Shown here in pieces: positions 1,268-24,406 of a stretch of 29,321 nucleotides of DNA. Every line of letters starts with the position of its first letter. Position 1 is the stretch's first letter. The position numbers and the translations under genes were made by a program. The notes under the pieces are model-generated. The model saw only the letters and a list, made by a program, of their open reading frames with translations, did no database searches and was not told where the DNA came from. Origin of the DNA: a virus. The stretch spans positions 1 to 29,321 of IMG/VR virus record IMGVR_UViG_3300028025_000858, one strand, 5' to 3'.

Positions 1268-1704
1268 TGGCTATTAATGAAAAAGTCTCAGGTGTGGGAG
1301 CAAATGCTTCTCGTACTGATAAAAACCTCTCTGAGCGTGTAGCACGCGTACAGCGCGATGCTAAGATGCAAAATGCATCTGGTGGGGGATATGGTCAGCG
1401 TGCTGACTTAACATCAATTGCTGGCGGTGCATCTACTAATGTACCTAGCCCAAGCATGCCAGAACCATCACGCGTATCTACTATTCCTTCTGTCAATGCC
1501 TTTGAGCCTGGTTCAGGTCGTCAAGGCATTCCTCTTTCAGATGGCGCAGAATTTGGTCCTGGACGCGGCGTAGAAGCACAACCATTTCCTGTTAATGCAC
1601 CAAATCCTGATTCTATCTTCGTTCGCGCTATGGCTGCTGCAAACCCAGAGTCACGTCAACTTATGATGATGGTTGAGGCGTACAACGAGATGGAATCGAT
1701 GTAA
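1267..1704 (+). CDS. Hypothetical Gly/Pro/Ser-rich virion-cluster protein (145 aa)
   Basis: No family is recognised. The first ~40 residues are polar and probably helical (DKNLSERVARVQRDAKM). Residues ~45-110 are rich in Gly, Pro, Ser and Asn and look disordered. The last ~30 residues (SIFVRAMAAANPESRQLMMM) look like an amphipathic helix. Start and stop both sit in TAATG overlaps with the neighbouring genes, at 1267 and 1704, so it is translated as part of the portal-to-capsid block. A disordered linker with terminal helices would suit a minor head protein or a partner of the 1930-residue protein that follows. This is a guess from composition and place. Confidence 0.7.
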   Translation: MAINEKVSGVGANASRTDKNLSERVARVQRDAKMQNASGGGYGQRADLTSIAGGASTNVPSPSMPEPSRVSTIPSVNAFEPGSGRQGIPLSDGAEFGPGRGVEAQPFPVNAPNPDSIFVRAMAAANPESRQLMMMVEAYNEMESM

Positions 1705-4700
1705 TGCCAGAAATTTTAACACCAGCACAGCGTCTTATGCAAGTTCAGATGGGGTCATTAACTCCTCAGACCTATGCAAATTTTAATTCTATTACTAACA
1801 AGTATCCTGGTATGAGCAAGGACCTTGTTATGTCTATGGTACGCCAAGGATTAGATGCAAATACTCCTGGGCTGGATAAAATTACAACAGTAGACGGAAT
1901 TGCTGCGCTCAAAGCAGATGCTTTTAATGTAGATAAACTTAAGAAAAAAGTTACTCCTGACCGTGGAATTTTAGGTTCAGTGCAGAATGTTTTCAAAGAA
2001 ACAATCTACGACCCATTTAAGGGTACTACACGTTTACTATTTGCTGCACTTCGCTCTCCTTACGATGCAACTACTGTTAATATTCGTAACCTTGTTGCTA
2101 TGTCACGAGGCGAAGAAGGTGCTGGAGAGCAATTTATCTCAGACCTTGCCGCAGGTCCTCTTGGTGAGTCTACTCAACTTGGACAAATTGCACGTAATCT
2201 TAATACTGGTACTGGTTCTGGTTTCTTTGTAACACCTGAAACTAAGGTTGGCAAAGCACAGGCTGCTGCCATGGGTAAGTACGGTCAGATTAATGGTAAG
2301 TCATTTACTATTGGTCGTAGTATTTTTAACGGCATAGGAATGAATCCAAATGGTAATGCTTATCGCGTATCATCTGGAATCGTAGATGCTGTTCTTAACG
2401 TGGCTGCAGACCCATCAACTTGGTTTGGACCTGGTGCTGTAGGTAAGATTATAAGCCAAGGCAAGACAGTAACTAATCTTACTAAAGAATTGTCACAAGT
2501 CAACAAGGCTGGCTTTGATAACATGGCTAAAGAAGCCATTGATAACCTAGAAAATACTAATCAGATTTTAAGAGATGCTCAATCAAAGAAAATCTCTAGT
2601 CCTTACAAGCGTTATGCTTCTAAGTACAAAAAAGCAGAGCAAGAAATCATTGCAAGAGAAACAGAAATTACAAATGTTCAAGTTAATACATTTAAGAAAC
2701 TTCTGAATACCTCTAAAGATATCTATGCTTGGGAAGGTGTAGACAAAGCAGCCGATGCTGTACTGTCTCCTACCGCTCTTGCTAAGTGGATTGTAGAAAA
2801 TCCTACAGTTCAGACTGGTGAATTGACCAAGGCTATTGGACTTCTCAGTGCTGACATGAAAAACACTGGTGGATTCTTTGATGGTTTCCTCATTATGGAC
2901 GAAGTTCCACGTGCAAACGCAATTTCAATTGGTGTTCACGCTGCAGATGAGTTTGCTGTCACATTAAAGGGTCAAGGTGAACTTAAACTCCTTGATATGG
3001 CAGATACATTTGTCAATGCTAGTGAAAAAGCACGCATTGCAGAAAGTGCAAACCGCACTAAATTTGCAGATGCTCTAGATAAAGTTGCAAGAACCAAAAA
3101 AGATGAAGTTGAATTCCGTATTCTTACACAGTTATCTGGAAGAATACGCGAAGATATGTCTAACCTTGAAGGCTTTATTGGTTCATTGTTCTCAATGGGT
3201 GATGAATTAGTAGCAGCAACACCTATGGGCAAACTTATTGCAGATGTTATTGAGTATAAAAATCCTAAAGTTATGGACCAAATTTCTAGTTTAATACGAG
3301 AAGTTTGGAAAGTAGACGGCTTTACAAATATTCGTTCTATCTATGGTGAAACTGGTGGCGTTGTAGTAACTAATACTAAGCGTCTTGCTGCTAAGAACGC
3401 AGAGTTTGGTAATGCTGCTGCAGAGATTTTAGACCCAACTAATCTTGGTCCTAATGTTCTTAAACTTCTTGATTCAGTTAAGAATTCAAAAGATGAGATT
3501 GCTCGTTTAGAAAACGAAATCAATACTCTATCTAATAAAACATTGGACTTAAAGGATAAAGAAAATTGGTTTAACATGCTGCGCGAAAAGGCACATGGAG
3601 ACCCAGATATCCTCAAGGAACTTATCCAAGACCCAGCAAATGCTGGTATCAAGAACCTTCTTAAACTTGAACTTGAGATTACAGAAAACAATGTATTCAA
3701 AGAGTCAATTATGGCTCAAATTGGTGTAACAGATAACTTCATGGGTGAAGTTCTAGATACACCTAATGCTGAAAAGGCACTTAAGTTTATTCTTGGACGT
3801 CAATTCCAGCCTATTGCTGATTTGATTGCAAAAGAAACCAATCCTGTACGTCTTCGTCGTCTATTTGGTCGCAAGTTAGATGACAATATGGTTACAGAAC
3901 TTGCTGCTGCAACTAACTCTGATGAGGTATTTAAGGTATTCTTAAACCAATTTGTACCTGGTGGAGACCCTGTAGCAATCAAGCAGGCATTAACTGCTGG
4001 TATAAAGGTTGCTACCAATCCTGTTGCTCGTATGGTTCCTGGTGTTAATCTTGACGCTATCCGCTATGCAGAGAATATCAACAAGGCATTTGGACGATTC
4101 TATATCCGTTCTACAGCACTTAATCTAAATGATTTGACAGCACTCAACAATGGTGTTGAGGACTGGATGAGTTCTCTAGGTATCAAGCGTATTGTTGGTA
4201 AGGGTGCACAGGAAAAGATTATTGCTGATACCCAACTTAATATCTTTAAGGCTGCTACAAACGCAGAACGTGCTAAAGCCGTTTCTAGTGGCATTGGTAA
4301 GTTGATGGATGAAGTAGGTCGTACTCTCAATCTTACAGATGCTGATATTGCAGAACTTAAGAATGTAACCAGAATTGCTGGAAACGAAGAAGCATTTATC
4401 AAGTCTTACTCCCTAGAAAACGCTATCAACAATAACGGTGGCGCAGTTATCAAGACACCTAATGGTGATATTAGACTGCCTGGTGGAATCCTTGAAGGTC
4501 AGTTGGTACATGATGTTATCAACCTTCCAGATAGCCGTAAGATTAACGAAGCGGTAGTTGGTTACAAGACTAACGTTCCTTTGTATGGTAAGGGTAAGTC
4601 TCTAAAGATTTTACTAGAAGAGACTAACGACTTGTGGCGTACAGCACAGTTAGTTGGTCGTGCATCTTACATCTTCCGTAACATTGCAGAAATGCAGATG

Positions 4701-7496
4701 CGTCAATTCTTCTCTGGTCATAACAGCCTATTTAATAATCCTCTTGGATTTATTACAATGGTAATGTCAGATGCAGAGGGTAACAAGTTGCAGAAGATGC
4801 TTGCCAAGGGTTCTAAGTATAACGTCAATGCAATGGGTGACTACTTTAAGACAGTAGATGCAGAAGTAGAACTATCAGAATCAATTATTGCTCGTCGTGG
4901 GCTAATGCGTGGTACATCTGTTGGTGACTATGGTGCTCCTGGACGTCAGGCTAGCATATTCAAGGCTTATCAAACTGTTGGAGTAGAACATCCTGATTTC
5001 CTAAAGGCACTTGGTTGGACTATGAACAACTTCTCATCAGATAAGTTCATGCCAGATGTAATTAGAATTCTTGAAATGGGTAACCCTCAAGCACAGATTG
5101 ATTACGTTGATAATCTTATTGCTACATTTGACGAGCCAGGAAATAAGTTAAGAGAGTTCGCAGCAGCAATCTATGATAACAATGAAGGTATGCGCGAGAT
5201 TCTTCTTAGGAACCCCGGCCTAGAAACTGGTCCTGGTCTTGTAAAGGATAACCTTAATAAAGAAAATATTCTTATCTGGTTATTTGATGAAGGACAACCT
5301 AGCAGTTATGCAGGTCAACTCAACCTTCTTGCAGGTCAAGGTGCTAAAAGAAACACAGTCTTGAGTCTTATTCGCGATGGTGAAGTACTAATCACCACAG
5401 AGAATGGCAAGGTTGTCAAACTTAAGACTCCTTACCGCCAACAAGGACTAACCACTGAGCAAGTTCTTGCTGCTGAAAAAGAATACCTTGCACGCGTTGA
5501 GAATCTATTTAAGCGTGAAGAACTAACTGGTTCTGTCGCAACTAACATGGTTGAAAAAACAAGCGTTCAAGGTGTCACAAAGCAAGGTCAAAAGTTTGTA
5601 GACTGGTTCTTTAATCTAGCAGCACGTGCTGAAAGTAAGATGAACTTTGGTCCAGAGTTTGATGCTGCATATTGGGATTACATTGCTGGCTATGCAGATA
5701 TGCTAGATACAAAAGATTTAATTACTCTACGCAATAATGCAAACAAGGCATTTGCTCCTCGTGGTGGAAAGAAGATTATTGGTCGTACTCCACCAGCACT
5801 TCGTGTTATTAACAAGACTCTTAAAGACCGTCTTAAGAAAACAGATTATGTGCATGTTGGTGGTACCTCAATTAAAACACTTGATGGTATTGCTGCAGAC
5901 CAGGCTTCTAAGTATGTCAAGGACTTGTTCTATGATGCTGCAAAGCAGAAGCAATGGGCTAATGCCTATCGTTTGGTAGCACCGTTTGCCCAGGCACATT
6001 ACAATACGCTTGGCAAGTGGAGTCAACTAACTGTTTCTAATCCAGTGCCTATCTATAAGTTTGGTAAAGCATTTGATGCTGCTACTAAAGAAGGCTCAAA
6101 TGTTATCTATGACGTGTCAGGTATGACATATGATGATAACCAAGGTTTCCTTTACAAGGATGAGCAGACACAACAACTACGCTTTAAGATGCCACTTGTT
6201 GGTAGCGTACTAGGTGCTTTGGCTGCGCAAAATATTAATGCAAAGGATGCTCTACAGATTACAACACCTGTAGAATCACTTAACCTTGCATTTGGTTCTC
6301 TTAACCCAGTTATCCCTGGTATTGGACCTGCACTAGTTGCAGCATACCAAGTTACTGGAAGAGATAATGCTTTTGGTCCAGTAGATGATGTTGTTCGTGA
6401 TATCTTGACTCCTTTTGGTGAGCCTAAGACAGCAACAGACATTGTATTCCCAGCATGGCTAAAGAAAACTTCTAATGCAATCCTGGGAAGCGATGCAACT
6501 ACATTGCGTGGCGTTAAAGACTGGGCTTCATACCTAGCATCAACTGGTGAGTATGGAGACAATCCACTTGGTAATGACCAAGAGCGCATAAGATTATTCA
6601 ACGATGCAACTCGTATTGCACGCTGGGGTGGCATATTCGGTGGCTTGCTACAGTCTATTAGCCCATCAGTTCCTATAGAAGAAGTTCTAGTTAGCATTAA
6701 GAACCCTGAGAACAAGCAAAACTTCATGACAATGACTATGCTTTACAATCAACTAAAGACTCTAAAGGATAGATATCCTGGAGACCAAGGTAAGGCAATC
6801 TCAGAGTTTGCTGCACAGTTTGGTGCTCGTAACCTTCTTGTTGCAGTAAGTGGAACTACACCTGGTTCATCAGGTATGGAAGATGCTTGGACATTCTTAA
6901 ATAATAATCCAGGTGCCAACGATAAGTATGCTCGTCCTAACGAGGATGTAATTCCATACTTCTTCCCAGGTGGAGAGTACTCACAGAAGTACTACAACTG
7001 GCAGGTTAAGACTGGTGCTCGTCGTAAACTATCTACCGCTGAGATTATGCAAGAATCAGAAGGCATGGTTTATGCAATGCTCAAGAGCCAGATTGCTGAG
7101 AAGCAGATTGCTGGCTACTACACAGGTGAATGGTATGCAGAACAGATTGCTATGCTAGACAAGCAATTTGGTGGTGCTCGTCCAGTAGATACTCTTGTTA
7201 CTAACATTTCAGATGCTCGTATTGCAGTCCTTGAGAAGGCTTTACAGGACCCTGCAATGCAATCATCACCAGTCTACAAGCAGATATCTGAATTCTACCC
7301 AGTGTTCAAGAGGTTCAAAGATTCACTTAATGAGATAAAGGTTACCAATTATGCGGAACTTTCATCTAAGGGTGGACTTCCAACATTAATGCGCGATGAA
7401 CTTGTTGCATTAGGAGAAAGATTAATGACAGAAAATCCTGACTTTATCCGTATGTACTACGGAGTATTTGCTGGAATATTAAAGGAGAATAAGTAA
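1704..7496 (+). CDS. Giant virion protein (1930 aa), probable internal/ejection protein
   Basis: This single uninterrupted frame is by far the largest gene here. The N-terminal region (~97-125, YDPFKGTTRLLFAALRSPYD) is amphipathic. Residues ~280-330 are charged and coiled-coil-like. Around residue 1000 is an aromatic/basic stretch (ASYIFRNIAEMQMRQFFSGH), and around 1495-1545 there is a Gly/Ala-rich, weakly hydrophobic region. The C-terminal third is rich in Tyr, Trp and Pro. Large helical proteins encoded beside portal and capsid in phages without a tape measure usually sit inside the head and are ejected with the DNA (T7 gp16 and P22 gp16/gp20 are the classic cases). I inspected the translation for polymerase motifs, a lysozyme domain and Walker motifs and saw none. 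Start and stop are TAATG overlaps. Function is inferred from size, composition and position. Confidence 0.7.
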   Translation: MPEILTPAQRLMQVQMGSLTPQTYANFNSITNKYPGMSKDLVMSMVRQGLDANTPGLDKITTVDGIAALKADAFNVDKLKKKVTPDRGILGSVQNVFKETIYDPFKGTTRLLFAALRSPYDATTVNIRNLVAMSRGEEGAGEQFISDLAAGPLGESTQLGQIARNLNTGTGSGFFVTPETKVGKAQAAAMGKYGQINGKSFTIGRSIFNGIGMNPNGNAYRVSSGIVDAVLNVAADPSTWFGPGAVGKIISQGKTVTNLTKELSQVNKAGFDNMAKEAIDNLENTNQILRDAQSKKISSPYKRYASKYKKAEQEIIARETEITNVQVNTFKKLLNTSKDIYAWEGVDKAADAVLSPTALAKWIVENPTVQTGELTKAIGLLSADMKNTGGFFDGFLIMDEVPRANAISIGVHAADEFAVTLKGQGELKLLDMADTFVNASEKARIAESANRTKFADALDKVARTKKDEVEFRILTQLSGRIREDMSNLEGFIGSLFSMGDELVAATPMGKLIADVIEYKNPKVMDQISSLIREVWKVDGFTNIRSIYGETGGVVVTNTKRLAAKNAEFGNAAAEILDPTNLGPNVLKLLDSVKNSKDEIARLENEINTLSNKTLDLKDKENWFNMLREKAHGDPDILKELIQDPANAGIKNLLKLELEITENNVFKESIMAQIGVTDNFMGEVLDTPNAEKALKFILGRQFQPIADLIAKETNPVRLRRLFGRKLDDNMVTELAAATNSDEVFKVFLNQFVPGGDPVAIKQALTAGIKVATNPVARMVPGVNLDAIRYAENINKAFGRFYIRSTALNLNDLTALNNGVEDWMSSLGIKRIVGKGAQEKIIADTQLNIFKAATNAERAKAVSSGIGKLMDEVGRTLNLTDADIAELKNVTRIAGNEEAFIKSYSLENAINNNGGAVIKTPNGDIRLPGGILEGQLVHDVINLPDSRKINEAVVGYKTNVPLYGKGKSLKILLEETNDLWRTAQLVGRASYIFRNIAEMQMRQFFSGHNSLFNNPLGFITMVMSDAEGNKLQKMLAKGSKYNVNAMGDYFKTVDAEVELSESIIARRGLMRGTSVGDYGAPGRQASIFKAYQTVGVEHPDFLKALGWTMNNFSSDKFMPDVIRILEMGNPQAQIDYVDNLIATFDEPGNKLREFAAAIYDNNEGMREILLRNPGLETGPGLVKDNLNKENILIWLFDEGQPSSYAGQLNLLAGQGAKRNTVLSLIRDGEVLITTENGKVVKLKTPYRQQGLTTEQVLAAEKEYLARVENLFKREELTGSVATNMVEKTSVQGVTKQGQKFVDWFFNLAARAESKMNFGPEFDAAYWDYIAGYADMLDTKDLITLRNNANKAFAPRGGKKIIGRTPPALRVINKTLKDRLKKTDYVHVGGTSIKTLDGIAADQASKYVKDLFYDAAKQKQWANAYRLVAPFAQAHYNTLGKWSQLTVSNPVPIYKFGKAFDAATKEGSNVIYDVSGMTYDDNQGFLYKDEQTQQLRFKMPLVGSVLGALAAQNINAKDALQITTPVESLNLAFGSLNPVIPGIGPALVAAYQVTGRDNAFGPVDDVVRDILTPFGEPKTATDIVFPAWLKKTSNAILGSDATTLRGVKDWASYLASTGEYGDNPLGNDQERIRLFNDATRIARWGGIFGGLLQSISPSVPIEEVLVSIKNPENKQNFMTMTMLYNQLKTLKDRYPGDQGKAISEFAAQFGARNLLVAVSGTTPGSSGMEDAWTFLNNNPGANDKYARPNEDVIPYFFPGGEYSQKYYNWQVKTGARRKLSTAEIMQESEGMVYAMLKSQIAEKQIAGYYTGEWYAEQIAMLDKQFGGARPVDTLVTNISDARIAVLEKALQDPAMQSSPVYKQISEFYPVFKRFKDSLNEIKVTNYAELSSKGGLPTLMRDELVALGERLMTENPDFIRMYYGVFAGILKENK

Positions 7497-8848
7497 TGGC
7501 TGATGTTAAAGTACCTTATGCTCCATCACAGGGCGGTTTTACAAGTAAACCAACTGCATTTGCTCAGATGTCAAACGTTCCAGGTACTGGTAATCTTAAT
7601 GCTCCTAACATCTGGACTGACCAGGAGAATCTATTCTATAAGTTTGCATTTGCAACAGAACCATTAGCAAAGGCTCAGGCTTATCAGAATCTTAACCGTG
7701 CTCTAAATGCAACTGCTGGACCTGCAGGTTTCAAGAATCAGTTTGATTACATTTCAAGCCTATTAGTTAAGACTGGACTAACTAAGAATTCACTAGGTTT
7801 TGCTAGCGCTTTGGATAAGGTAGTTGCTGCCTCTGTCGGTACTAACACTGACCCGTTTACATTCCTTGAGACCTATAATAAGAGCCTTGCTGGCGCCAAG
7901 GCTGTTAAACAACCAGATACTACAACTCGTTATGCAAAGCAAATCCAGACAGCATTACAGTTCAAGGACCTAGGCGATGCTCGTCAGTATTACAATGATG
8001 CATACTTTACAGCATGGGGTAAAAACCCATCTGCTGAGTTAGATAAAAAGTTTCAGGATGCTTGGAATAAGCAAGTTCAAGAACAAGACAAGCCAACAAC
8101 TACCAAGACTGTAACCGAGTTTGCTCCTATCTATGATAAGAAGAGTAAACCAGTTATTGACCCTAAGACTAAGAAGCAAAAGGTTGATAAGTTTGGCAAC
8201 CCTGTCTACTCTAAAATTGCTGTAGACCAGTCAGGTCAAAAGCGTTATACAAGTGTAGTTACTGGAACAACAACATCCGCTGCAGAAGGCTTTACACCAG
8301 AAGAGCAGAAGCAATTTCTTGCGGATTTCCTAGTAGCCAACAACCCTAATACTACTTGGAGTGTTGATGACCTAGGAGGTTCTGCTAAGTCTCTTTATGA
8401 CACTATTGCATCCTTCCATAAGGCTAACTATACTAAGGTTCCAGACCTTGCTACTTTGTCTCCTTTGATTAACAATGTTCTTTCTAGTACAGATGAGAAG
8501 GTTGCTACAGAGTATATTACTCAGTATCAGAATACAATTCGCAAGCAAACTGCTAATAAGTATATGAGTATTGCTGAGTATGTAAATGCTGGAGAAGATG
8601 CCGATAAGTATGTCAAGCCACTTATTGAAGTATTCAGCACAGCACTTGAAAAGCAATTTTCAGAAAATGACCCATTCGTACTGCAGGCTCTTAACTTCAA
8701 AGATGATAAAGGTGTATACCGTATGCCTAACGCGCTTGAATTAAATCAGATGGTTATGAACCACCCTGACTATGGTAAGACAGCAAAGGCTGTAAATGAG
8801 GCTGTTGACTTAACCCAGAATCTAAGAAGCAAGTTAGGACGCGGATAA
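7496..8848 (+). CDS. Probable internal virion protein (450 aa)
   Basis: No domain is recognised. The first ~45 residues are low-complexity and rich in Asn, Gly and Pro; the rest looks mostly helical, with regular Lys/Gln/Ala spacing (DARQYYNDAYFTAWGKNPSA, FTPEEQKQFLADFLVANNP). A Lys/Thr-rich linker covers residues ~195-235. There is no signal peptide or membrane segment. The gene is coupled on both sides by TAATG, upstream to the 1930-residue protein and downstream to the 477-residue protein. Three consecutive large helical proteins resemble the sets of three ejection proteins of T7 (gp14, gp15, gp16) or P22 (gp7, gp16, gp20). They lie before scaffold and capsid here rather than after the tail genes. 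Confidence 0.65.
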   Translation: MADVKVPYAPSQGGFTSKPTAFAQMSNVPGTGNLNAPNIWTDQENLFYKFAFATEPLAKAQAYQNLNRALNATAGPAGFKNQFDYISSLLVKTGLTKNSLGFASALDKVVAASVGTNTDPFTFLETYNKSLAGAKAVKQPDTTTRYAKQIQTALQFKDLGDARQYYNDAYFTAWGKNPSAELDKKFQDAWNKQVQEQDKPTTTKTVTEFAPIYDKKSKPVIDPKTKKQKVDKFGNPVYSKIAVDQSGQKRYTSVVTGTTTSAAEGFTPEEQKQFLADFLVANNPNTTWSVDDLGGSAKSLYDTIASFHKANYTKVPDLATLSPLINNVLSSTDEKVATEYITQYQNTIRKQTANKYMSIAEYVNAGEDADKYVKPLIEVFSTALEKQFSENDPFVLQALNFKDDKGVYRMPNALELNQMVMNHPDYGKTAKAVNEAVDLTQNLRSKLGRG

Positions 8849-15184: not shown

Positions 15185-17011
15185 ATGACAGTCCGCAGAT
15201 ATTCCTCCACTTCCCAGGAAACTAACCTTGCCTCAGCGCTAAACTCTAGCGCAACTACTATGGTGGTCAACTCCGCATCAGCGCTTCTTTCTAGTATTAC
15301 GCCTGGTGCTGGTGAAACATTTACTGTTGTTATTGACCCAGATACAGCGCTTGAAGAAATTGTAGATGTCATAAGTCCTAGTGCACCAGGCAGCAATACA
15401 CTAACAATTACTCGTGGTACTGGAGTAGATGGCACTAACGCTATTGCCCACTCTGCTGGTGCAAAGGTACGTCACATGGCTATTGGCCGTGACTTCCGCG
15501 AGGCTAACAACCACATTGAGAATACAACAACTGCTCATGGGTTAACTCTTGCTAACGTAACTTTGTCAACTGGTACAGGTAACGTATCAACTGCAATGCT
15601 TGCATCTAACGCTGTGACAACTGCAAAGATTACTGACGCTAACGTTACAACTGCTAAAATTGCAGATAGCGCAATTACCTCTGCCAAGATAGCAGACCTT
15701 ACAATTGCTACAGGTGATATTGCAGACTCTGCTATTACAAGTGGTAAGATTGCAACAGGTGCCGTTGGCACAACCAAGATTGATGATTTGTCAGTTACAG
15801 AGGGCAAGTTAGCCCCTAACTCAGTTACATCAGCCAAAATTGTTGATGGAACTATTGTCGCTGGTGACCTAGCAGACGGAGCAGTAACATCTGCTAAGAT
15901 TCTAGACGGTACAATTGTTAATGCTGATATTAACGCAAGCGCTGCTATTGATAAAACTAAAATTTCAGGCACAGCAATTACTGCTGGAGATACTGGAACT
16001 GTCACATCAACAATGATTGCTGATGGAACTATCGTCAACGCTGACATCAATACTTCTGCTCAAATTGCTTACAGTAAGACTAACCTAACTAATAGCATTG
16101 TAGATGCAGATGTTAATGCTTCTGCTGCTATTGCTTGGACAAAGATTGCTCCATCATCCACAGTATCTACAACTGAACTTGGATATCTAGATGGCGTTAC
16201 CTCTGCCATCCAGACTCAGTTAGATGCCAAATTGGCAACCGCTACAGCAGCGAGCACATATGCTCCGCTTGCTAGCCCAGCATTGACTGGTGTGCCTACT
16301 GCCCCAACTGCAGCGGCTAATACCAACACAACTCAGATTGCTACTACTGCTTACGTCCAGACAGAAATTGCTGACCTGATTGCATCTGCTCCTGGAGCAC
16401 TAGATACTCTTGATGAATTAGCAGCAGCCCTTGGCGATGATGCTAACTTTGCTACAACAGTTACTAACAACCTAGCAACTAAGTTGCCTTTGGCTGGTGG
16501 CACTATGACTGGTGCTATCGCAATGGGTACTAACAAGATTACAGGTCTTGGTGACCCTACCAATGCACAGGATGCAGCAACTAAGAATTACATTGACACA
16601 GTAACAATTGCTCCTAGCAACTTGACTGGTCCAATTACATCTGTAGGTTCTGCAACTTCAATTGCATCTCAGACTGGTACTGGCAGCAAGTTCGTAATGG
16701 ATAACAGCCCTACACTTATTACTCCAGTGTTAGGCGTAGCCACTGCTACCAGCATTAATGGAACAACGATTCCATCATCAAAGACTTTGGTTGCTACAGA
16801 CTCAACAGCATATGTAGTGCCAAGCCAGACAGGTAACTCAGGCAAGTATCTGACTACCAATGGTACAACTTCTTCTTGGGGAGCAGTCGATGCACTACCT
16901 TCACAGACTGGTAACTCAGGAAAATATCTAACAACCAATGGCTCAGCACCAAGTTGGGCAGCAATTGTAACCGACCCTACACCTTCAATCTTTATGCTAA
17001 TGGGAGCCTAA
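15185..17011 (+). CDS. Tail fibre protein with long repeat shaft (608 aa)
   Basis: Residues 1-~110 form a globular, probably virion-attaching domain with RGTGVDGTNAIAHSAGAKV, similar to the insert in the preceding neck protein. Residues ~137-320 contain many imperfect ~10-residue units of the type (I/V)TSAKIADGTIV, a pattern expected for a trimeric beta-helical shaft. ASPALTGVPTAPTA (~360) and LPLAGGTMTGAIAMG (~434) are classic tail-fibre motifs, followed by AATKNYID. Near the C-terminus two copies of SQTGNSGKYLTTNG (~545 and ~571) are typical of phage fibre ends. No chaperone domain with autoproteolysis is seen. The protein recognises the host surface or carries proteins that do so. Confidence 0.88.
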   Translation: MTVRRYSSTSQETNLASALNSSATTMVVNSASALLSSITPGAGETFTVVIDPDTALEEIVDVISPSAPGSNTLTITRGTGVDGTNAIAHSAGAKVRHMAIGRDFREANNHIENTTTAHGLTLANVTLSTGTGNVSTAMLASNAVTTAKITDANVTTAKIADSAITSAKIADLTIATGDIADSAITSGKIATGAVGTTKIDDLSVTEGKLAPNSVTSAKIVDGTIVAGDLADGAVTSAKILDGTIVNADINASAAIDKTKISGTAITAGDTGTVTSTMIADGTIVNADINTSAQIAYSKTNLTNSIVDADVNASAAIAWTKIAPSSTVSTTELGYLDGVTSAIQTQLDAKLATATAASTYAPLASPALTGVPTAPTAAANTNTTQIATTAYVQTEIADLIASAPGALDTLDELAAALGDDANFATTVTNNLATKLPLAGGTMTGAIAMGTNKITGLGDPTNAQDAATKNYIDTVTIAPSNLTGPITSVGSATSIASQTGTGSKFVMDNSPTLITPVLGVATATSINGTTIPSSKTLVATDSTAYVVPSQTGNSGKYLTTNGTTSSWGAVDALPSQTGNSGKYLTTNGSAPSWAAIVTDPTPSIFMLMGA

Positions 17012-17012
17012 T

Positions 17013-17339
17013 ATGTCAAAGAAAGTCCTTGGTCAATCCAATCCATCTGCTGTTACAGCCACTACGCTGTACACAGTACCTGCTTCTAAGGAAGCAGTAA
17101 TCTCTAGCATCTCAGTATGCAACCTTGCATCTTCATCTGCTACCTACCGTATTGCTATCCGTCCTGCTGGAGCAGCCTTGGCTAACCAGCACTACCTTGC
17201 ATACGATGTAACAGTAGGTGCATCTGATACTACAATCATCACAGTAGGTATCACACTTGCTACTACAGATGTAGTAACCGTATATGCTTCAACTGCAAAC
17301 CTAGCCTTCTCAGCATTTGGAGATGAGGCTTCCGTCTAA
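17013..17339 (+). CDS. Small fibre-associated beta protein (108 aa)
   Basis: The 108 residues are almost all predicted beta strands: LGQSNPSAVTATTLYTVPAS, then EAVISSISVCNLASSSATYR, IRPAGAALANQHYLAYD and a hydrophobic C-terminal sandwich. From memory, this small domain is common beside tail-fibre genes of aquatic phages and appears fused to fibres in others. There is one base between the fibre stop and this start. It shares the beta style of the nine following paralogs but not their IPQ-Tyr-Thr motif. A fibre tip, adhesin or trimer-cap role is likely. Confidence 0.7.
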   Translation: MSKKVLGQSNPSAVTATTLYTVPASKEAVISSISVCNLASSSATYRIAIRPAGAALANQHYLAYDVTVGASDTTIITVGITLATTDVVTVYASTANLAFSAFGDEASV

Positions 17340-17929
17340 TGTCAATTACTAGTGCAAAGACTGGCGCAACTGGCATCAGCCTTGCGCTAGAAAATAACTA
17401 TATGGAGCCTATTGCCAGTGTTCTTGTTGGCGCTGGCACAGCCGCTGAAATTGTATTTGATGAGATTCCGCAAAACTATAGGCATCTTCAAATACGAGCA
17501 ATTGGTCAAGTTACGTTAAGTAGTGACCCAGGTGGTTCGGGTGGTTGTGGAGTTAATTTTAATAAAGACTTTGGACCTAACTATACAAGACACGAACTAG
17601 GTGGCCCTGGTGGTGGAACAGTAGCACCATACGCAATTGCTGATTTATCAGGTGGTGCGCTACAAAGATTTCCATTTAGACAAACCAATGACAATATCTA
17701 TGGTGTTGCCATTGGAGATATATTAGATTACTCAAACTCTACTAAATTCAAAACATTAAAAAATATTGGTGGATTTGATAAGAATAGCGCGTCTGGCGTA
17801 ACTGGTGACGTGTATATGAACTCATTTTTATGGCGCTCAACAGCACCAATTTCAACTATCTCTTTAACAACTGGTGTTTGGAATTGGAAACAACATTCAA
17901 GGATTTCACTATACGGAATTAAGGGGTAA
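17339..17929 (+). CDS. Tail-fibre-type paralog A1 (196 aa)
   Basis: First of nine tandem paralogs, type A. Type A proteins are ~195 residues and carry a ~25-residue N-terminal extension before the common PIASV strand. The shared core begins with EIPQNYRHLQIR (~42-53), continues with FNKDFGPNYTRHEL, then IGDILDYSNSTKFKTLKNIG, and ends ISLYGIKG. It looks like a single beta-sandwich domain without a shaft, so it probably sits on the 608-residue fibre or on the tail and binds the host surface. The start shares a base with the previous stop. Receptor binding is inferred from neighbourhood and from my recollection of this family in uncultured phages. Confidence 0.75.
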   Translation: MSITSAKTGATGISLALENNYMEPIASVLVGAGTAAEIVFDEIPQNYRHLQIRAIGQVTLSSDPGGSGGCGVNFNKDFGPNYTRHELGGPGGGTVAPYAIADLSGGALQRFPFRQTNDNIYGVAIGDILDYSNSTKFKTLKNIGGFDKNSASGVTGDVYMNSFLWRSTAPISTISLTTGVWNWKQHSRISLYGIKG

Positions 17930-17932
17930 CCA

Positions 17933-18454
17933 ATGGCTGCAAAAACAGGCACGTTTACTTTAATTGCAAACAATACTTTGGGTTCTGCTACATCTTCCGT
18001 AACATTTAGTTCTATTCCACAAACATATACTGATTTAAGATTAGTAATTAACTGTGGTACATCAACCAATGGTGATGGAATTTTTATTAGATTTAATGGA
18101 GATACTTCTTCTATTTATTCTGACACTGGACTTTGGGGAACTGGTTCTTCTGCATCAACTGGAAGACACGTTGCTGCAACAGGTGCTGCTTTAAGCATTG
18201 CAACTGGTGGCAGTACAACTGCATCTAGTATGATTGCACTTGTTGATTTTATTGACTATTCAAATACAACTACCTACAAAAGTTTTATTTCAAGAGCAGG
18301 TAATGCAACAAGTACTGCATCTTATCCAGCAACAGAAATAACTGTAGGTATGCGAAGTTCAACCTCTGCAATTACTTCTTTTACAGTTCTGTGTGCAAGT
18401 AACATTGTTGTGGGTTCTACCTTTGAACTTTATGGAATCGAGGCAGCAAAGTAA
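17933..18454 (+). CDS. Tail-fibre-type paralog B1 (173 aa)
   Basis: Second paralog, type B. Type B lacks the long N-terminal extension, has an FIRFNGDTSSIYSDTGLWGTG-like strand pair after the SIPQTYTDLRLV motif (28-38), then FIDYSNTTTYKSF and RSSTSAITSF, and ends FELYGIEAAK. Strong Ser/Thr/Gly content and alternating hydrophobics point to a beta sandwich. AAGGGG encoded at the end of the A1 gene lies 6 nt before this ATG. The most similar neighbours by eye are 19544 and 21147, not the adjacent genes. Confidence 0.75.
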   Translation: MAAKTGTFTLIANNTLGSATSSVTFSSIPQTYTDLRLVINCGTSTNGDGIFIRFNGDTSSIYSDTGLWGTGSSASTGRHVAATGAALSIATGGSTTASSMIALVDFIDYSNTTTYKSFISRAGNATSTASYPATEITVGMRSSTSAITSFTVLCASNIVVGSTFELYGIEAAK

Positions 18455-18957
18455 TGGCCCTACAATTATTCAAAATTGAAACCGTAGACGTTGCAAGCCC
18501 TGTGTCATCTGTTACCTTTAGCAACATCCCACAGACTTATAGTGACTTGAAACTTGTAGCAAGTGTTCGCTCAAACCGAGCAGCAGCCGAAGATGGTTTT
18601 GGCATTACAGTTAATTCAGCAAGCAGTGGATACACTTATAGAGTTCTAAGTAGTAATGGAACTTCAGCATCTAATGCGTCTACATCCTTTGAGCAAATCT
18701 GGGTTGCAAGAGTTAACGGTAATACAACTACCGCTAATGCATTTGCTCATGTAGATGTCCTATTTCCAAACTACACTAGTTCAAATGCAAAGACATATTC
18801 TGTAGATGGAGCAACGGAAAGCAATACAGTTGAAGGCTACATTACATTTTCTACAGTCGCACAAAGTTCAACTAGTGCTATTACTTCTTTAACTGTTCAG
18901 ACTATCAATGGAACTGTTGGAACTAACTCATCCTTTACATTATACGGAGTACTATAA
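18454..18957 (+). CDS. Tail-fibre-type paralog C1 (167 aa)
   Basis: Third paralog, type C. After NIPQTYSDLKLV (~25-36), type C has SVRSNRAAAEDGF in place of the B-type loop. A long Ser/Thr/Asn stretch follows, then the signature FAHVDVLFPNYTSSNAKTYS (~103-122), and the end is FTLYGVL. The Asn-Ala-Phe-Ala-His/Asn and Pro-Asn-Tyr pattern recurs at 20039 and 21646. Starts in TAATG with the B1 stop and ends in TAATG with A2. Beta-sandwich adhesin is the likely fold. Confidence 0.75.
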   Translation: MALQLFKIETVDVASPVSSVTFSNIPQTYSDLKLVASVRSNRAAAEDGFGITVNSASSGYTYRVLSSNGTSASNASTSFEQIWVARVNGNTTTANAFAHVDVLFPNYTSSNAKTYSVDGATESNTVEGYITFSTVAQSSTSAITSLTVQTINGTVGTNSSFTLYGVL

Positions 18958-19544
18958 TGGCTATTAGAAGTCTTAAGAGTGGTACATTCAGCAGAAGCGG
19001 TTTGGTTGGTAACCCTGTCATTATGCCTGGCTCCTATGAGTCTATTGCTACTGTGACTGTTGGAGCAGGTGGAGCGTCAAGCGTTAGTTTTACTGGCATC
19101 CCATCTACCTATACACATTTGCAACTGCGTATGTTCTGTCAATTTAATGATACTACTGCTGGTTTAGGTGGAGCATCTTTACAGTTCAATTCTGATACTG
19201 GAACAGGTTATACACGCCACGAACTTATTGGTGAAGGAACCGCTGCAAGTTCAGTTGGTTTTGGTACTGGCACTTATAATGGTGCAACTGTAGGAAGATT
19301 TTATTTTACTCCTAGTTCTAGTATTTTTAGCCCTGCTGTTATAGATATTTTGGACTATACAAATACAAATAAATATACAACCGTAAGAGCATTGGGTGGA
19401 ACAGATGTTAATGGTTCTGGCGGTGAGTTAAGATTTAGTTCATCAGTATGGACTAATACGGCAGCAGTAACAAGCATTACAATTCCTGCATCTACTTATA
19501 ATTTTAAGCAGTATTCTTCTATTGCACTATATGGAGTTAACTAA
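18957..19544 (+). CDS. Tail-fibre-type paralog A2 (195 aa)
   Basis: Fourth paralog, type A. It has the N-terminal extension AIRSLKSGTFSRSGLVGNPV before SIATVTVGAGGASSVSF, then GIPSTYTHLQLR (~47-58), FNSDTGTGYTRHELIGEG, VIDILDYTNTNKYTTVRALG and the end IALYGVN. The His-Leu-Gln-(I/L)-Arg and Tyr-Thr-Arg-His-Glu-Leu residues match A1 closely and are absent from B and C types. GGAG in the last codons of C1 lies 7 nt before its start. This gene begins the second A-B-C cassette. Confidence 0.75.
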   Translation: MAIRSLKSGTFSRSGLVGNPVIMPGSYESIATVTVGAGGASSVSFTGIPSTYTHLQLRMFCQFNDTTAGLGGASLQFNSDTGTGYTRHELIGEGTAASSVGFGTGTYNGATVGRFYFTPSSSIFSPAVIDILDYTNTNKYTTVRALGGTDVNGSGGELRFSSSVWTNTAAVTSITIPASTYNFKQYSSIALYGVN

Positions 19545-20038
19545 TGCCTAAGACATATACGCCAATCTCAACTGTAAAAATTGACAACTCTAGTACAACA
19601 ACACTTGATTTTACATCAATACCACAAACATATACAGACCTAGTTCTTGTATGTAGTTATGGATTGACTGCTGGAGACTTATATCTTCGCATCAATAACG
19701 ATACTGCAAATTATTCAGATACAGAATTGTATGGCAATGGAACGGCTGCTAATTCAACAAGATTATCAAACCGAAGCGGTTATTATTTAAGTGACCAGGG
19801 TATTACCAAGCCTGGACCAGCAACAGTTTCAACTGTGCATTTTAATAACTATAGCAATACCACTACTTATAAAAATGTTTTATGGCGTTCAGATGATGTT
19901 GGTGTATCAACAGAGGCTCACATTGGATTATGGAGAAGTACTGCTGCAATAACTAGTATTAACTGCATCATTATCAATGTCTCTGGAGTAATAACACCTG
20001 GCTCTCAATTTACTTTATATGGAATTAAGGCGGCTTAA
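19544..20038 (+). CDS. Tail-fibre-type paralog B2 (164 aa)
   Basis: Fifth paralog, type B. SIPQTYTDLVLV (~25-36) is followed by LYLRINNDTANYSDTELYGN, a good match to the B1 strand pair; then FNNYSNTTTYKNVLWRSDDV and GLWRSTAAITSI, ending FTLYGIKAA. It is shorter than B1 because the loop after the first Arg-rich strand is reduced. GGAG from the last codons of A2 lies 7 nt before the ATG, and the stop/start junction is TAATG. Confidence 0.75.
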   Translation: MPKTYTPISTVKIDNSSTTTLDFTSIPQTYTDLVLVCSYGLTAGDLYLRINNDTANYSDTELYGNGTAANSTRLSNRSGYYLSDQGITKPGPATVSTVHFNNYSNTTTYKNVLWRSDDVGVSTEAHIGLWRSTAAITSINCIIINVSGVITPGSQFTLYGIKAA

Positions 20039-20557
20039 ATGGCATATACATACAGCAAGATAGCCACCTATACCGTAGGTAGTGGTGGTGTTGGAACAAT
20101 TAATTTTATTAATATTCCACAAACCTATACCGACTTAAAACTTGTAGTCAGTGGTAGAACAAATAATGCCGCTAATTATGATTATCTTACAATTAAGTTT
20201 AATGCTTCTACCTCTGGATATTCTTCTAAACTTCTTTATGGAACTGGTGCAGGTGCATCATCTACTGCAGCAGCATCTGATATTACATTTGGTGCCTTAA
20301 ATGGAGACAATGCTACTGCTAACACATTTGCTAATGCCGAATATTATATTCCTAATTATACTAGAAATAGTTATAAAGCAATTAACCAAGATGGTGTAGA
20401 AGAATCTAGCGCAACTAGCACAGTTTTTGCTTTTTTAACTTCTGGATTATGGGCAAACACTGACCCAATTAATAGCATTACATTGTCAATGGCATTTGGC
20501 ACATTGTTCAAGCAATATACAACAGCCCATCTCTACGGCATTAAGGCGGAAATCTAA
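20039..20557 (+). CDS. Tail-fibre-type paralog C2 (172 aa)
   Basis: Sixth paralog, type C. NIPQTYTDLKLVVSGRTNNA (~25-44) matches the C1 and C3 start of the core. The C signature is TFANAEYYIPNYTRNSYKAI, with the same Pro-Asn-Tyr. The end is HLYGIKAEI. The previous stop ends one base before this start. AGGCGG, contributed by the Lys-Ala-Ala codons of B2, serves as the ribosome site. Probable beta-sandwich host-binding protein. Confidence 0.75.
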   Translation: MAYTYSKIATYTVGSGGVGTINFINIPQTYTDLKLVVSGRTNNAANYDYLTIKFNASTSGYSSKLLYGTGAGASSTAAASDITFGALNGDNATANTFANAEYYIPNYTRNSYKAINQDGVEESSATSTVFAFLTSGLWANTDPINSITLSMAFGTLFKQYTTAHLYGIKAEI

Positions 20558-21147
20558 TGGCTTCCATCAGTCTTAAGAATAAATCTAAATCAGGCAACCT
20601 TACAGCCCCTGGTGATGTAGACCCTGGTGCAATGATTCCAATTGCCACCGTTACTCTTAGTAGCCAAACAACAAATATTGACTTTACTAATATCCCACAA
20701 GATTATACACACCTACAGATACGTGGAGTCGGCAATGTTATTTACGCTGGACTTGACTACGGTGACTTGTCCCTTAATTTTAATAGTGACACTGGCGCTA
20801 ACTATTCTTGGACCAGAATGAGAGGCAACTCGTCAAACGTTAACACTGATTTACAGACAGGATATAATTCTGCCCGTGCTGTTTATATGTGCCTGACAAC
20901 AAGTTCTAGCAGTTTTTATGGGTCAACTATTATAGACATACTAGATTACTCTAATGCTAGTAAATACAAAACTGCCTACTCTATGGGTGGTATTGATTTT
21001 AATGCTGCTGGTAGTGGAGTTGGTAGTACTTCTTCGCTTTGGTTAAATACAAATCCTATTACTTCAATAAGATGCTCTTCTTCAAACGGAGACTTCCGAG
21101 CAAATACTACTCTTGCCTTGTACGGCATAAAGACAGCAGGTGCATAA
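20557..21147 (+). CDS. Tail-fibre-type paralog A3 (196 aa)
   Basis: Seventh paralog, type A. N-terminal extension ASISLKNKSKSGNLTAPGDV precedes PIATVTL; the core has NIPQDYTHLQIR (~45-56), LNFNSDTGANYSWTRMRG, IDILDYSNASKYKTAYSMGG and the end LALYGIKTAGA. The Tyr-Thr-Arg-His-Glu-Leu element of A1 and A2 is changed to Tyr-Ser-Trp-Thr-Arg-Met, so this copy is the most divergent of the three in the putative ligand loop. It starts the third cassette. AGGCGG from C2 lies before its start. Confidence 0.75.
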   Translation: MASISLKNKSKSGNLTAPGDVDPGAMIPIATVTLSSQTTNIDFTNIPQDYTHLQIRGVGNVIYAGLDYGDLSLNFNSDTGANYSWTRMRGNSSNVNTDLQTGYNSARAVYMCLTTSSSSFYGSTIIDILDYSNASKYKTAYSMGGIDFNAAGSGVGSTSSLWLNTNPITSIRCSSSNGDFRANTTLALYGIKTAGA

Positions 21148-21644
21148 TGCCATTACCATCAACATTAACACCAATTGCCAACCTAACATTAAACTCAGCA
21201 ACTCAAACAGTAACATTCCAAAACCTTCCCCAGAACTATACTGACATAATGTTGGTATCTGTATTTGGCGCGACTTCTGGTATGGATGTACACATCCGTT
21301 TTAATGGAGATAGCAACGCAAGTAATTATGGAACTGTACGTATGTTTAGCCAATCAGCAGGTGCATTTAGTAGCAGAGTTACTGACGCTGGTATACAGCC
21401 ACGCACTAGCCTTAACCAAACAGCAGGTGCGTTATCTTGTATCTTAAGAACAAATATAATGAATTACAAAAGCACATCTATGTACAAACCAGTAATAGGT
21501 AGATATGACTTTGTTGGACAAACAGAACAGCACTCTGGAACTTGGATGAGTACAGCAGCAATTAATAAAATTGAACTAGTTGCACTAGCAAACACCTTTA
21601 CCGCTGGTTCTTCATTTACGCTCTACGGAATAAAGGCGGCTTAG
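21147..21644 (+). CDS. Tail-fibre-type paralog B3 (165 aa)
   Basis: Eighth paralog, type B. The ATG at 21147 makes the usual TAATG overlap with the A3 stop; an in-frame ATG further upstream (21039) would overlap A3 by ~100 nt and add residues unlike any paralog, so I reject it. NLPQNYTDIMLV (~26-37), VHIRFNGDSNASNYG, IMNYKSTSMYKPVIGRYD and GTWMSTAAINKI match B1 and B2. The end is FTLYGIKAA, identical to B2. Beta-rich, no Cys pair beyond a single Cys. Confidence 0.75.
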   Translation: MPLPSTLTPIANLTLNSATQTVTFQNLPQNYTDIMLVSVFGATSGMDVHIRFNGDSNASNYGTVRMFSQSAGAFSSRVTDAGIQPRTSLNQTAGALSCILRTNIMNYKSTSMYKPVIGRYDFVGQTEQHSGTWMSTAAINKIELVALANTFTAGSSFTLYGIKAA

Positions 21645-21645
21645 T

Positions 21646-22158
21646 ATGTCTAATATGATTCCAATTCAAACGGTTACTGTTGGTAGCAGTGGGGCAAGTC
21701 GTATTGATTTTACTAATATTCCCCAGAACTATACCGATTTAAGATTAGTTATATCTGGTAGACAAAATGCTGGTAGTGGATTTGGTTATTCGACATTATC
21801 GTTTAATAACGATGCAACAACAACCAATACTACTTTTAGAAATATGGTAACAGAAGGTTCATCTACTGTTGCAACATATAATCAAGGCGCATACGGTACT
21901 GGTGGTGAAATCAATGCTGCTGGTTTACCTGGTGCTACATCTACATTTGGTCATATGGAAGTATATATACCAAACTATTCTAGTTATAATATTAAACCTT
22001 ATTCAATTAATTCTGCTACTCCTAACTTGTATTGGTGGTGGCAGGGTAGTCATCTGTACAATTCAACAAGACCAATCACAGCAATTAAATATACTAATAT
22101 AAATTATAATTTAACCCAGCATACAACAGCAACTCTTTACGGAATCCGTAAATACTAA
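21646..22158 (+). CDS. Tail-fibre-type paralog C3 (170 aa)
   Basis: Ninth and last paralog, type C. NIPQNYTDLRLVISGRQNAG (~25-44) and the signature TFGHMEVYIPNYSSYNIKPY match C1 and C2; the end is ATLYGIRKY. A Trp-rich stretch (NLYWWWQGSHLYN, ~130) is unique to this copy and would be an obvious sugar-binding surface. AAAGGCGG from the B3 end lies 6 nt before the start. After its stop the next gene has its own AGGAGA, so the coupling pattern of the array ends here. Confidence 0.75.
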   Translation: MSNMIPIQTVTVGSSGASRIDFTNIPQNYTDLRLVISGRQNAGSGFGYSTLSFNNDATTTNTTFRNMVTEGSSTVATYNQGAYGTGGEINAAGLPGATSTFGHMEVYIPNYSSYNIKPYSINSATPNLYWWWQGSHLYNSTRPITAIKYTNINYNLTQHTTATLYGIRKY

Positions 22159-22173
22159 CCTAGGAGAAACACA

Positions 22174-22401
22174 ATGACAGATACAAAAATCGTAGTTAAC
22201 TGCGAAACAGGCGAGACAACTGTGGTAACTCTTACCTCAGAAGAAATGGCACAGCGTGAAGCAGATGCAGCAGCATTCGCAGTAGAAGAAGCAGCACGTC
22301 TAGCAGCAGAGGAAGCAGCAAAGGCTGCTAAGGAATCTGCACAGGCAAAGTTAGCAGCACTTGGTTTGACTGCTGACGAAATCGCTGCACTATCTAAGTA
22401 A
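22174..22401 (+). CDS. Small coiled-coil protein after the fibre array (75 aa)
   Basis: N-terminal beta part (TKIVVNCETGETTVVTLT, 3-20), then a long Ala/Glu helix (EEAARLAAEEAAKAAKESAQ) and a C-terminal ALGLTADEIAALSK turn. Small proteins of this build stand behind fibre genes in many phages, and the pattern recalls XkdW or tail-fibre-assembly-type proteins. I cannot assign it firmly. It has its own good AGGAGA site 7 nt before the ATG, unlike the coupled paralogs. A chaperone or attachment role for the fibre array is a reasonable guess from place. Confidence 0.65.
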   Translation: MTDTKIVVNCETGETTVVTLTSEEMAQREADAAAFAVEEAARLAAEEAAKAAKESAQAKLAALGLTADEIAALSK

Positions 22402-22426: not shown

Positions 22427-24406
22427 ATGGCAACGCCAGACATTACGGAAAATATACCGTTAAACGTTGGTAACCCTGGAACCTCTGGTTTCTGGAGCAA
22501 CAACGCTGAGGACTATGATGTTGCTGTCGGTGGCTTGCCATTCTTCTTAGCACCTACAGACCAGACTCCTTACCAAAGAGAGACTGCTCCATACCGCAAA
22601 GACCAATTCGACAATGGTTCTGAGCCAGGAGAACAATCACTGACTGGTTGGTGGATTCGTTCACAATCATCTTTCCATGTTGGCAATGGCATTAAATTCT
22701 ATGACCCATCAGCAGGTGAAGCAACTAAGTATCGCTTTGCTGATTCACAAGGCGTAGATGTTTGGACTAAAGGACAAGTAACGTTACTTAAGGATATGGA
22801 TAACAACCATGAGACCCTAGCAGCAGTTACTGGTACTGACCATCAACACCCAAATCAACACGTACGTTCTATTCAATACAATGGCACCAATGCTGTGTTG
22901 CTTCATGATGGATACGATGTAGATAAAATTGTTCCAGGTGCATCTCCTGTTCACTTTATTGACTATAACTCAGGCAGCGCTGAGGCTGTTTATGCTATCT
23001 GCGATGATGGTGTATATGCATACTGGGTAACTAATGCTGTGGCTGGTGGAGCCAATAAACTTCACATGTACAAAAAATTACTGACTGACAACACAACAAC
23101 TATTCCATCTCCAATGTTTACCGAAACTGGGCTTGTTATTGTTTATGCAGCCATGGAGTTTATCAAGGACCGTATTATCTTATGTGTAAACAATAAAGTT
23201 TATGAGTTAGCAACTACTGCTACTGCGCTTCCAAGCCCTGTATACACTAACCCTAATACTAATTACCACTACACATCTGTTGCTGCATCTGGTCCTGCTA
23301 TCTACACAGCGGGTCATTCAGGTATCTATTCAACAATCCAGAAGTACACACTAACTACTGCTGGTGCTATGCCTACCCTTACACAGGCTGTAGTTGCTGC
23401 AGAATTTCCTACTGGTGAAGTAGTTGAAAAACTATACTACTACCTAGGCTATATGATGATTGGTACATCTAAAGGTGTGCGTGTGGCTACAATCAATGAC
23501 CAAGATGGCTCTCTTGCCTATGGCCCGCTTGTTGTTGAAACATCTCAGCCAGTCTATGACTTTGCTGCTCGTGACCGTTTCGTATGGTGTGCATCAGGTA
23601 TTGGTGCTTTAGATGCTGGACTTATCCGTATCGACTTAGGCCAGAGCATTGAGGGTGAACCACTTCGCTTTGCCTATGCAAATGACTTACAGGTAACCCA
23701 ATCTGCAGAACACTATACAACAGGTGTTGCATTCATTGGCACTACTAATCGTCTTGCTTTCTGCACTGCATACAATACTACCGATGGTGCTATCTACACA
23801 GAGTCTGCAACAGTGCTACGTCCAACAGGATACGTGACCACTGGTGCTATCCGTTATGGAACACTTGAGCCAAAAAACTTTAAGTTAATCCGTGCTCGTG
23901 GTGACTTTACCCATGGCGCTATGGATATCTATGCTATTGATTCAAGCAACAATACATACACAATTATTACCTACAATTCTGCAGTAGGAACTCCTGAGGC
24001 TGCTACAACCAACCCAGAAGGTCCACAAGAGTATCTGTCATACAAGTTTACGCTCTCACGCAGCGCAACCAGTACCAGCCAAGGCCCTGTATTTAAGGGT
24101 TATCAAGCCAAGGCTCTACCTGCTACAGCACGTCAACGGGTGATTCAGTTCCCTGTATGGTGCTATGACGTAGAGACCGACAGATATAACGTAAAGACTG
24201 GATACGAAGGACGTGCGTGGGAGCGTATTCAATTACTTGAAGATGTAGAAAAACTAGGCGATATTGTGAACGTACAAGACTTTACCACTGGTGAGCGCGT
24301 ACAAGCACTGATTGAAAAAGTTAACTTCGTACGTAAGACTCCACCATCAGGTCAGTTTGATGGCTTCGGAGGACTTCTCCTCATCACAGTTAGGACTGTC
24401 TTATAA
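22427..24406 (+). CDS. Large beta-propeller-like tail protein (659 aa)
   Basis: The N-terminus (VGGLPFFLAPTDQTPYQRET, then GEQSLTGWWIRSQSSFHVGN) is of a type I recall from actinophage minor tail proteins. Residues ~180-460 show at least six repeated beta units with a small hydrophobic, Tyr/Asp/Gly pattern (for example AVYAICDDGVYAYWV, RIILCVNNKVYELAT, YMMIGTSKGVRVATI, RFVWCASGIGALDAG), which suggests a beta propeller. The C-terminal ~90 residues (GRAWERIQLLEDVEKLGDIV) form a mixed domain. In T7-like phages the nozzle gp12 also has a propeller, so this may be the nozzle or tail platform that carries the fibres. AAGGAG precedes the start. No catalytic triad is seen. Confidence 0.7.
   Translation: MATPDITENIPLNVGNPGTSGFWSNNAEDYDVAVGGLPFFLAPTDQTPYQRETAPYRKDQFDNGSEPGEQSLTGWWIRSQSSFHVGNGIKFYDPSAGEATKYRFADSQGVDVWTKGQVTLLKDMDNNHETLAAVTGTDHQHPNQHVRSIQYNGTNAVLLHDGYDVDKIVPGASPVHFIDYNSGSAEAVYAICDDGVYAYWVTNAVAGGANKLHMYKKLLTDNTTTIPSPMFTETGLVIVYAAMEFIKDRIILCVNNKVYELATTATALPSPVYTNPNTNYHYTSVAASGPAIYTAGHSGIYSTIQKYTLTTAGAMPTLTQAVVAAEFPTGEVVEKLYYYLGYMMIGTSKGVRVATINDQDGSLAYGPLVVETSQPVYDFAARDRFVWCASGIGALDAGLIRIDLGQSIEGEPLRFAYANDLQVTQSAEHYTTGVAFIGTTNRLAFCTAYNTTDGAIYTESATVLRPTGYVTTGAIRYGTLEPKNFKLIRARGDFTHGAMDIYAIDSSNNTYTIITYNSAVGTPEAATTNPEGPQEYLSYKFTLSRSATSTSQGPVFKGYQAKALPATARQRVIQFPVWCYDVETDRYNVKTGYEGRAWERIQLLEDVEKLGDIVNVQDFTTGERVQALIEKVNFVRKTPPSGQFDGFGGLLLITVRTVL

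Follow-up and report, generated by a model that had tools for sequence, protein, structure and literature searches.

The window analysed here is a stretch of 29,321 nucleotides of viral DNA (IMG/VR record IMGVR_UViG_3300028025_000858, positions 1 to 29,321), from a tailed phage of freshwater bacteria, probably actinobacteria. On its plus strand, between positions 17339 and 22158, nine consecutive genes share one domain and follow each other as three sets of the types A, B and C. We consider it fairly probable that each A-B-C set gives an obligate 1:1:1 heterotrimer which acts as a receptor-binding head and is anchored by A, that the sets are addressed to their positions and used together, and that their genes are swapped slot by slot. 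Such a trimer would unite three diverged versions of a single beta-sandwich domain and form the head of a tail fibre. The textbook phage fibres, on the other hand, are homotrimers of one protein.

Three gene types in a fixed order

The nine open reading frames (ORFs) code for proteins of 164-196 amino acids (aa) and adjoin or overlap by one base, in a single operon-like run. Set 1 comprises type A (17339..17929, 196 aa, an N-terminal tail followed by the domain), type B (17933..18454, 173 aa) and type C (18454..18957, 167 aa). Set 2 has its A at 18957..19544 (195 aa), its B at 19544..20038 (164 aa) and its C at 20039..20557 (172 aa), and set 3 consists of A (20557..21147, 196 aa), B (21147..21644, 165 aa) and C (21646..22158, 170 aa). 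For the B gene of set 3 (gene 8) the ORF was called from 21039, with the ATG at 21147. The type assignments are based on the ORFs, pair scores, alignment and maximum likelihood (ML) tree described below.

The alignment of the nine proteins has 11 invariant columns, and a hidden Markov model built from the nine retrieves all of them. Mean pair scores were 241 within a type, 125 between types and 129 between neighbours. The original prediction, made by inspecting the DNA, that the nine share one domain and that neighbours are less alike than genes three apart is thus borne out. All-against-all comparison recovered the predicted groups as well: the split (1,4,7)(2,5,8)(3,6,9) came top of all 280 partitions into triples (summed score 2166, the next one 1912), and in the ML tree of the nine a single branch separates each type from the rest. 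Support is firm for B (99/99), good for C (93/91) and weak for A (69/78). An equally clean grouping was reached in 1 of 200 shuffles, and a tree of 84 domains taken from 15 phages has one clade for each type, with support of 91 (A), 81 (B) and 99 (C). While the predicted repetition of A-B-C in order stands, its period of 1600-1618 bp has to be corrected: the spacing from set to set, taken from the coordinates, is 1585-1618 bp, with 1585 and 1607 bp for the C genes.

Relatives were collected as IMG/VR contigs from profile and pattern scans with separate A, B and C queries. Three of the scans gave at least 560-583 confirmed relatives each, so the loci that we sampled fall far short of the whole family. 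After removal of overlapping loci, 299 non-redundant ones remained (numbered with the letter L in what follows), which contain 332 A, 331 B and 320 C domains. Away from the locus ends, 232 of 245 modules read exactly (ABC)n. Counting neighbours, we see AB 311 times, BC 305 times, CA 22 times (and six more times fused in one protein), BA three times and AC three times; AA, BB, CC and CB do not occur among the 299 loci. The pattern does not depend on the type used as query, since all 53 usable loci found with the B query are (ABC)n as well.

Exceptions come from a small lineage with the order B-A-C, from a few additional B-like genes and from contigs that break off inside a module. The B-A-C order is found in L079 (853-2480), L173 (5023-7410) and L260 (3396-5826), with a C-A fusion in two of the three. 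Divergent B-like genes of 220-249 aa lie outside the sets in L033, L053, L169 and L331 and are possibly a fourth type.

Ordered A-B-C is a general rule and not a peculiarity of the window phage; neither the number nor the order of these genes in relatives is random. Among the 278 loci with full sets, 252 have one set, 20 have two and six have three. The ordered triplication had been singled out as unusual, which holds for the tripling (six loci) and does not hold for the ordered set itself.

One probable anchor per set and the predicted packing

The three types differ at their ends. A tail of at least 15 aa precedes the domain in 93% of the A proteins, in 2% of B and in 0.3% of C. C-terminal extensions of at least 60 aa show the reverse: none in 317 A proteins, 25 in 321 B and 51 in 306 C, most of the B and C extensions falling in one sequence cluster. 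Where the order is B-A-C (three loci), the first gene's product carries the tail and A is tail-less; each set has one tail, carried by the type that leads. Separate homotrimers would need self-attachment of each protein, a point in favour of the heterotrimer. In the reading that we favour, A would be the anchor whose N-terminal tail docks the trimer on the virion, and B and C, with almost no N-terminus, would rely on it.

Those extensions of B and C that were tested, all from relatives, match the Pfam family Gly_rich_2 (PF21722) and, weakly, PHROG 863; Gly_rich_2 had no match in the nine window proteins. Long B and C variants end with a Gly_rich_2 part of about 270 aa, for example in L080 (6383-7711), L066 (8596-9930), L055 (8589-9941) and others. 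In T-even phages the glycine-rich adhesin sits as a protein of its own at the tip of a homotrimeric fibre, whereas here adhesins of this kind (that of T-even and S16 gp38) are a C-terminal extension of B and C in some relatives. The C-termini of B and C would point outward, and some phages would add adhesin-type glycine-rich domains there.

Fibronectin III (FN3) is found inside long A extensions and in one C extension. The long A variants of L124 and L065 have virion-protein-like N-termini, followed by FN3. In such lineages A may dock via FN3 and virion-binding domains instead of a tail. Furthermore, in six loci the C of one set is fused to the A of the next via an FN3-like linker, so that the sets are physically tied together; these linkers cluster with the FN3-containing extensions.

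In 13 loci A, B and C are in one frame, with no more than one stop codon plus a few bases between them (and a further stop in one locus). Using these, we ran AlphaFold2 (AF2) on the A-B-C read-through chain of L211 with 13 paired rows. The alignment consisted of in-frame triples only; single A, B or C rows aligned onto the wrong domain. All three domains were folded, with a predicted template modelling score (pTM) of 0.80 and a predicted local distance difference test (pLDDT) of 78. By our estimate, a random placement of three domains, each about 170 of the 541 residues, would give a pTM of roughly 0.3-0.4, so the mutual placement of the domains is predicted with confidence. This packing, together with the one-of-each order in relatives, supports the original idea that A, B and C act as a set.

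The domain is predicted to have a beta-sandwich fold. The monomer prediction for the A protein of window set 1 (1A) has a pTM of 0.77, and lectins and alginate lyases match it only at an expectation value (E) > 0.001. For the three-domain chain, the best match in the PDB is to the LG domains of laminin-511 (E 2.9e-9, probability 0.97, but a template modelling score of 0.16). A Pfam scan of the nine proteins matched no family and a PHROG scan gave a sole match, a weak one to gene 7. Most of the best viral matches are to uncharacterised proteins from uncultured phages, and the nearest ones over the full length are about 40% identical.

Could the three types instead be stacked serially along the fibre, A proximal, then B and C, with each layer a homotrimer? 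In many fibre operons the gene order is the physical order, and a stack would fit the fixed order with one of each type, the tail on the first gene only and the C-FN3-A fusions, which would continue the chain from C to the next A. We nevertheless think it unlikely. B and C have no N-terminal module that could seat them on a layer below, the AF2 model with its pTM of 0.80 packs a single copy of each type together, and three homologous domains of equal size suit a pseudo-threefold trimer better.

Three positions and the exchange of genes

For a comparison by position we used five triple-set phages, namely the window, L001, L003, L109 and L110; the sixth, L067, is a separate lineage. In the A trees the first sets of the five phages group together with support 100/99, the second sets with 95/95 and the third sets with 91/92. 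Set 1 also groups in the B tree (99/97), and sets 1 and 3 do so in the C tree (98/98 and 99/98). By these trees, sets 1, 2 and 3 are positional orthologues. A recent tandem triplication in the window phage can be rejected, because each of its sets groups with the set of the same number in other phages; the nearest relative of a set is almost never in the same phage.

The A tails are specific for the position. In the window they measure 24 aa in set 1 (17339..17410), 29 aa in set 2 (18957..19043) and 28 aa in set 3 (20557..20640). Across the five phages, mean identity of the tails within a position is 0.91, 0.79 and 0.81 for sets 1, 2 and 3, as against 0.42, 0.47 and 0.47 for the rest of the protein, and identity between tails of different positions is 0.29-0.35. 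Synonymous changes in the tail codons show that it is the protein sequence which is conserved. Phages with two sets have recurring A tails of their own. We infer that the A tails are addresses for three docking sites. The window phage would thus carry three sets at three distinct docking places, by means of three different A tails, and rather than alternatives, the three sets look like addressed positions that are in use at the same time.

This is at odds with the earlier suggestion that three alternative sets are carried, for which we find no support. If one set per virion served as adhesin, either switchable or as bet-hedging of the host range, one could understand that the set bodies are strongly diverged and that the window and L001, near-identical in set 1 and in the small flanking genes, differ in sets 2 and 3. 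The positional orthology with different conserved tails and the C-A fusions that join sets speak against it, and make it improbable in our view. All nine genes are on one strand in one tightly packed run, which is not the arrangement of an inversion-type phase-variable tail fibre. Between 16500 and 23000 there are no long inverted repeats, only short imperfect ones of 20-26 nucleotides, and no recombinase was found among the window genes scanned or matched to families (small ORFs were covered in part).

Exchange of genes was counted in 312 distinct sets, from which only identical sets had been removed. In 33 pairs of sets A is more than 80% identical; B is below 65% in 24 of these pairs, and so is C in 24. 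L116 and L228 differ only in B: their nucleotide identity is 94% upstream, 98% in A, 50% in B, 95% in C and 98% downstream, and it falls at 7524 and recovers at 7994, the B gene lying at 7507-7989. Aligned DNA also has clean swaps of A and C (L226 and L015), of A and B (L217 and L394) and of B and C (L281 and L293), the rest being near-identical in each case, and a swap of mainly C (L188 and L186). As judged from these alignments, single genes are exchanged between relatives at gene borders, and each replacement is type for type, as interchangeable subunits of one complex would show. In terms of the heterotrimer, the bodies diverge and whole genes are swapped slot by slot (A for A, B for B, C for C), which would make the trimer combinatorial.

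We also asked whether the sets are strict units of inheritance. This is not the general rule, as A, B and C rarely share their nearest relative. Contrary to this gene-wise mixing, the whole of set 1 is common to the window and L001 (96/91/95% identical), with 100% identity in the 108-aa gene and the 75-aa gene of the flanks, whereas for sets 2 and 3 the identity is just about 36-57%. The drop starts about 80-140 bp into gene 4, which is about at the end of the tail.

Free-standing genes of 121-190 aa, by eye similar to HNH homing endonucleases, lie between A and B or between B and C in L008, L042, L137, L206, L219, L232, L244 and L268, and also in L325, L341, L353, L358, L379, L383 and L399. 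They may help to drive the gene-wise exchange. We had considered the genes inserted at these places as extra subunits and rejected this, as by eye they are rather HNH endonuclease-like.

Nine independent homotrimeric tip proteins, with A-B-C as a frozen old duplication without joint function, are very improbable: although lone-domain proteins of the Streptomyces phages Intolerant, Stuff and Microdon indicate that the domain can work alone, the genes reassort and yet almost no complete module lacks one type (the lone-C loci begin less than 1 kb from a contig end), a frozen order is unexpected under such reassortment, and B and C have no attachment part.

Several points weigh against the heterotrimer that we prefer. 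The AF2 chain comes from a relative, L211, with artificial short linkers and 13 rows, and represents the A-B-C combination alone. The fold match is weak, the 1A monomer having no PDB match below E 0.001, and the family is known from sequences and predicted models alone. Small lineages (L079, L173, L260) depart from A-B-C, and extra B-like genes are present in L033, L053, L169 and L331. Finally, both the docking of the tails and their docking partner are what we infer.

Known systems, genomic surroundings and meaning

A heterotrimer of three consecutive tail proteins is, as a principle, already known. The virophage DSLV2 has three consecutive paralogous tail proteins (QIG59353-QIG59355) that form a 1:1:1 heterotrimer by co-purification and bind cyanobacterial cells, with positional clades across relatives (PMC12724248, J Virol 2025). 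The window family likewise has three consecutive paralogous genes, and proteins of the same position in different viruses are closer than neighbours within one virus. That the same genomic signature goes with a heterotrimer established by biochemistry in DSLV2 supports, by analogy, a heterotrimer here. The AF2 pseudo-chain with its pTM of 0.80 supports it as well. The differences are that DSLV2 is a virophage with a T4 gp37-like needle, a tail collar domain (PF07484) and one set, whereas the window is a tailed phage with a triple set. Tails, tandem sets and slot exchange do not appear in the available part of the DSLV2 description. The window proteins do not belong to the DSLV2 family, since the Pfam scan found that family's collar domain in none of the nine.

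In the mycobacteriophage Mysterious, gp35, gp36 and gp37 form a beta-sandwich heterotrimer held by the baseplate; six copies form the baseplate bowl, and there are N-terminal hairpin arms (PMC13252515, preprint 2026). It is also an actinobacteriophage with a three-gene beta-sandwich heterotrimer, which for the window is predicted only. A tblastn search at E <= 1 gave no mycobacteriophage match, only Streptomyces phages and OX376640/1, and PDB chains did not match the profiles A2 and A4. The two may still be kin.

In the papers searched we found the window family, ct2KA10, repeated addressed sets and slot-wise exchange nowhere described, which is weak evidence, as subscription journals were thinly covered. 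The family, the tandem addressed sets and the slot-wise reassortment look new.

The Streptomyces phages Intolerant (gp29), Stuff (gp30) and Microdon (gp29) have the domain at the C-terminus of a protein of about 396 aa near tail genes. This lone-domain protein, from one gene with no triplet, is probably the homotrimeric form. It branches outside all of the three types in the tree, a position which suggests that one fibre gene, presumably for a homotrimer, gave rise to the three specialised copies.

Upstream of the sets are a portal fragment, scaffold-like and major head proteins and a fibre-like protein of 608 aa (15185..17011), which matches PHROG tail fibre families. Its N-terminus is, by eye, like that of FlowerPower gp44 in the same genomic place, and it is a probable virion-attached shaft. 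Next to it is the 108-aa tail-fibre-type protein (17013..17339; PHROG 11338/693, tail fiber), and after the last set come the 75-aa Ala/Glu-rich protein (22174..22401) and a conserved protein of 659 aa (22427..24406; PHROG 11667), which marks the phage lineage and has tblastn matches of about 33% in Streptomyces phages; all four genes are on the plus strand. In FlowerPower, a single 473-aa gene directly before the 659-aa homologue stands in place of the fibre gene, the 108-aa gene and the nine set genes. The host is likely actinobacterial, judging from the kin of the head protein and the 659-aa protein in Streptomyces phages and from a search of a species-representative genome collection, whose only match, a contig carrying one A-B-C set, belongs to an uncultured actinobacterium.

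Ala/Glu-rich proteins of 75-78 aa recur between or after sets in L004, L053 and L174. An ORF of 1930 aa (1704-7496) between the portal fragment and the head gene has no PHROG match. In many loci the gene 5' of set 1 often ends with a recurring C-terminus, WYVVGDIA or WYIVGGIA, which is perhaps a fibre tip on which the set docks.

More generally, the sets may represent a combinatorial addressed adhesin, with several heterotrimers per virion, each placed by a position-specific tail on one subunit, and three slots that can be exchanged independently across a large pool of environmental phages, so that receptor specificity would come from three separately inherited parts. We see the chances of this broader view as even. 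If three diverged paralogues are obligatory partners throughout a widespread family, with one anchor and slots that recombine a single gene at a time, there would be a second route to diverse host recognition, by combining parts rather than by mutating one. The cultured Streptomyces phages with a lone copy offer the presumed homomeric form for comparison, and ordered triplets of paralogues with a tail on the first only would be a genomic signature for heteromeric fibres elsewhere.

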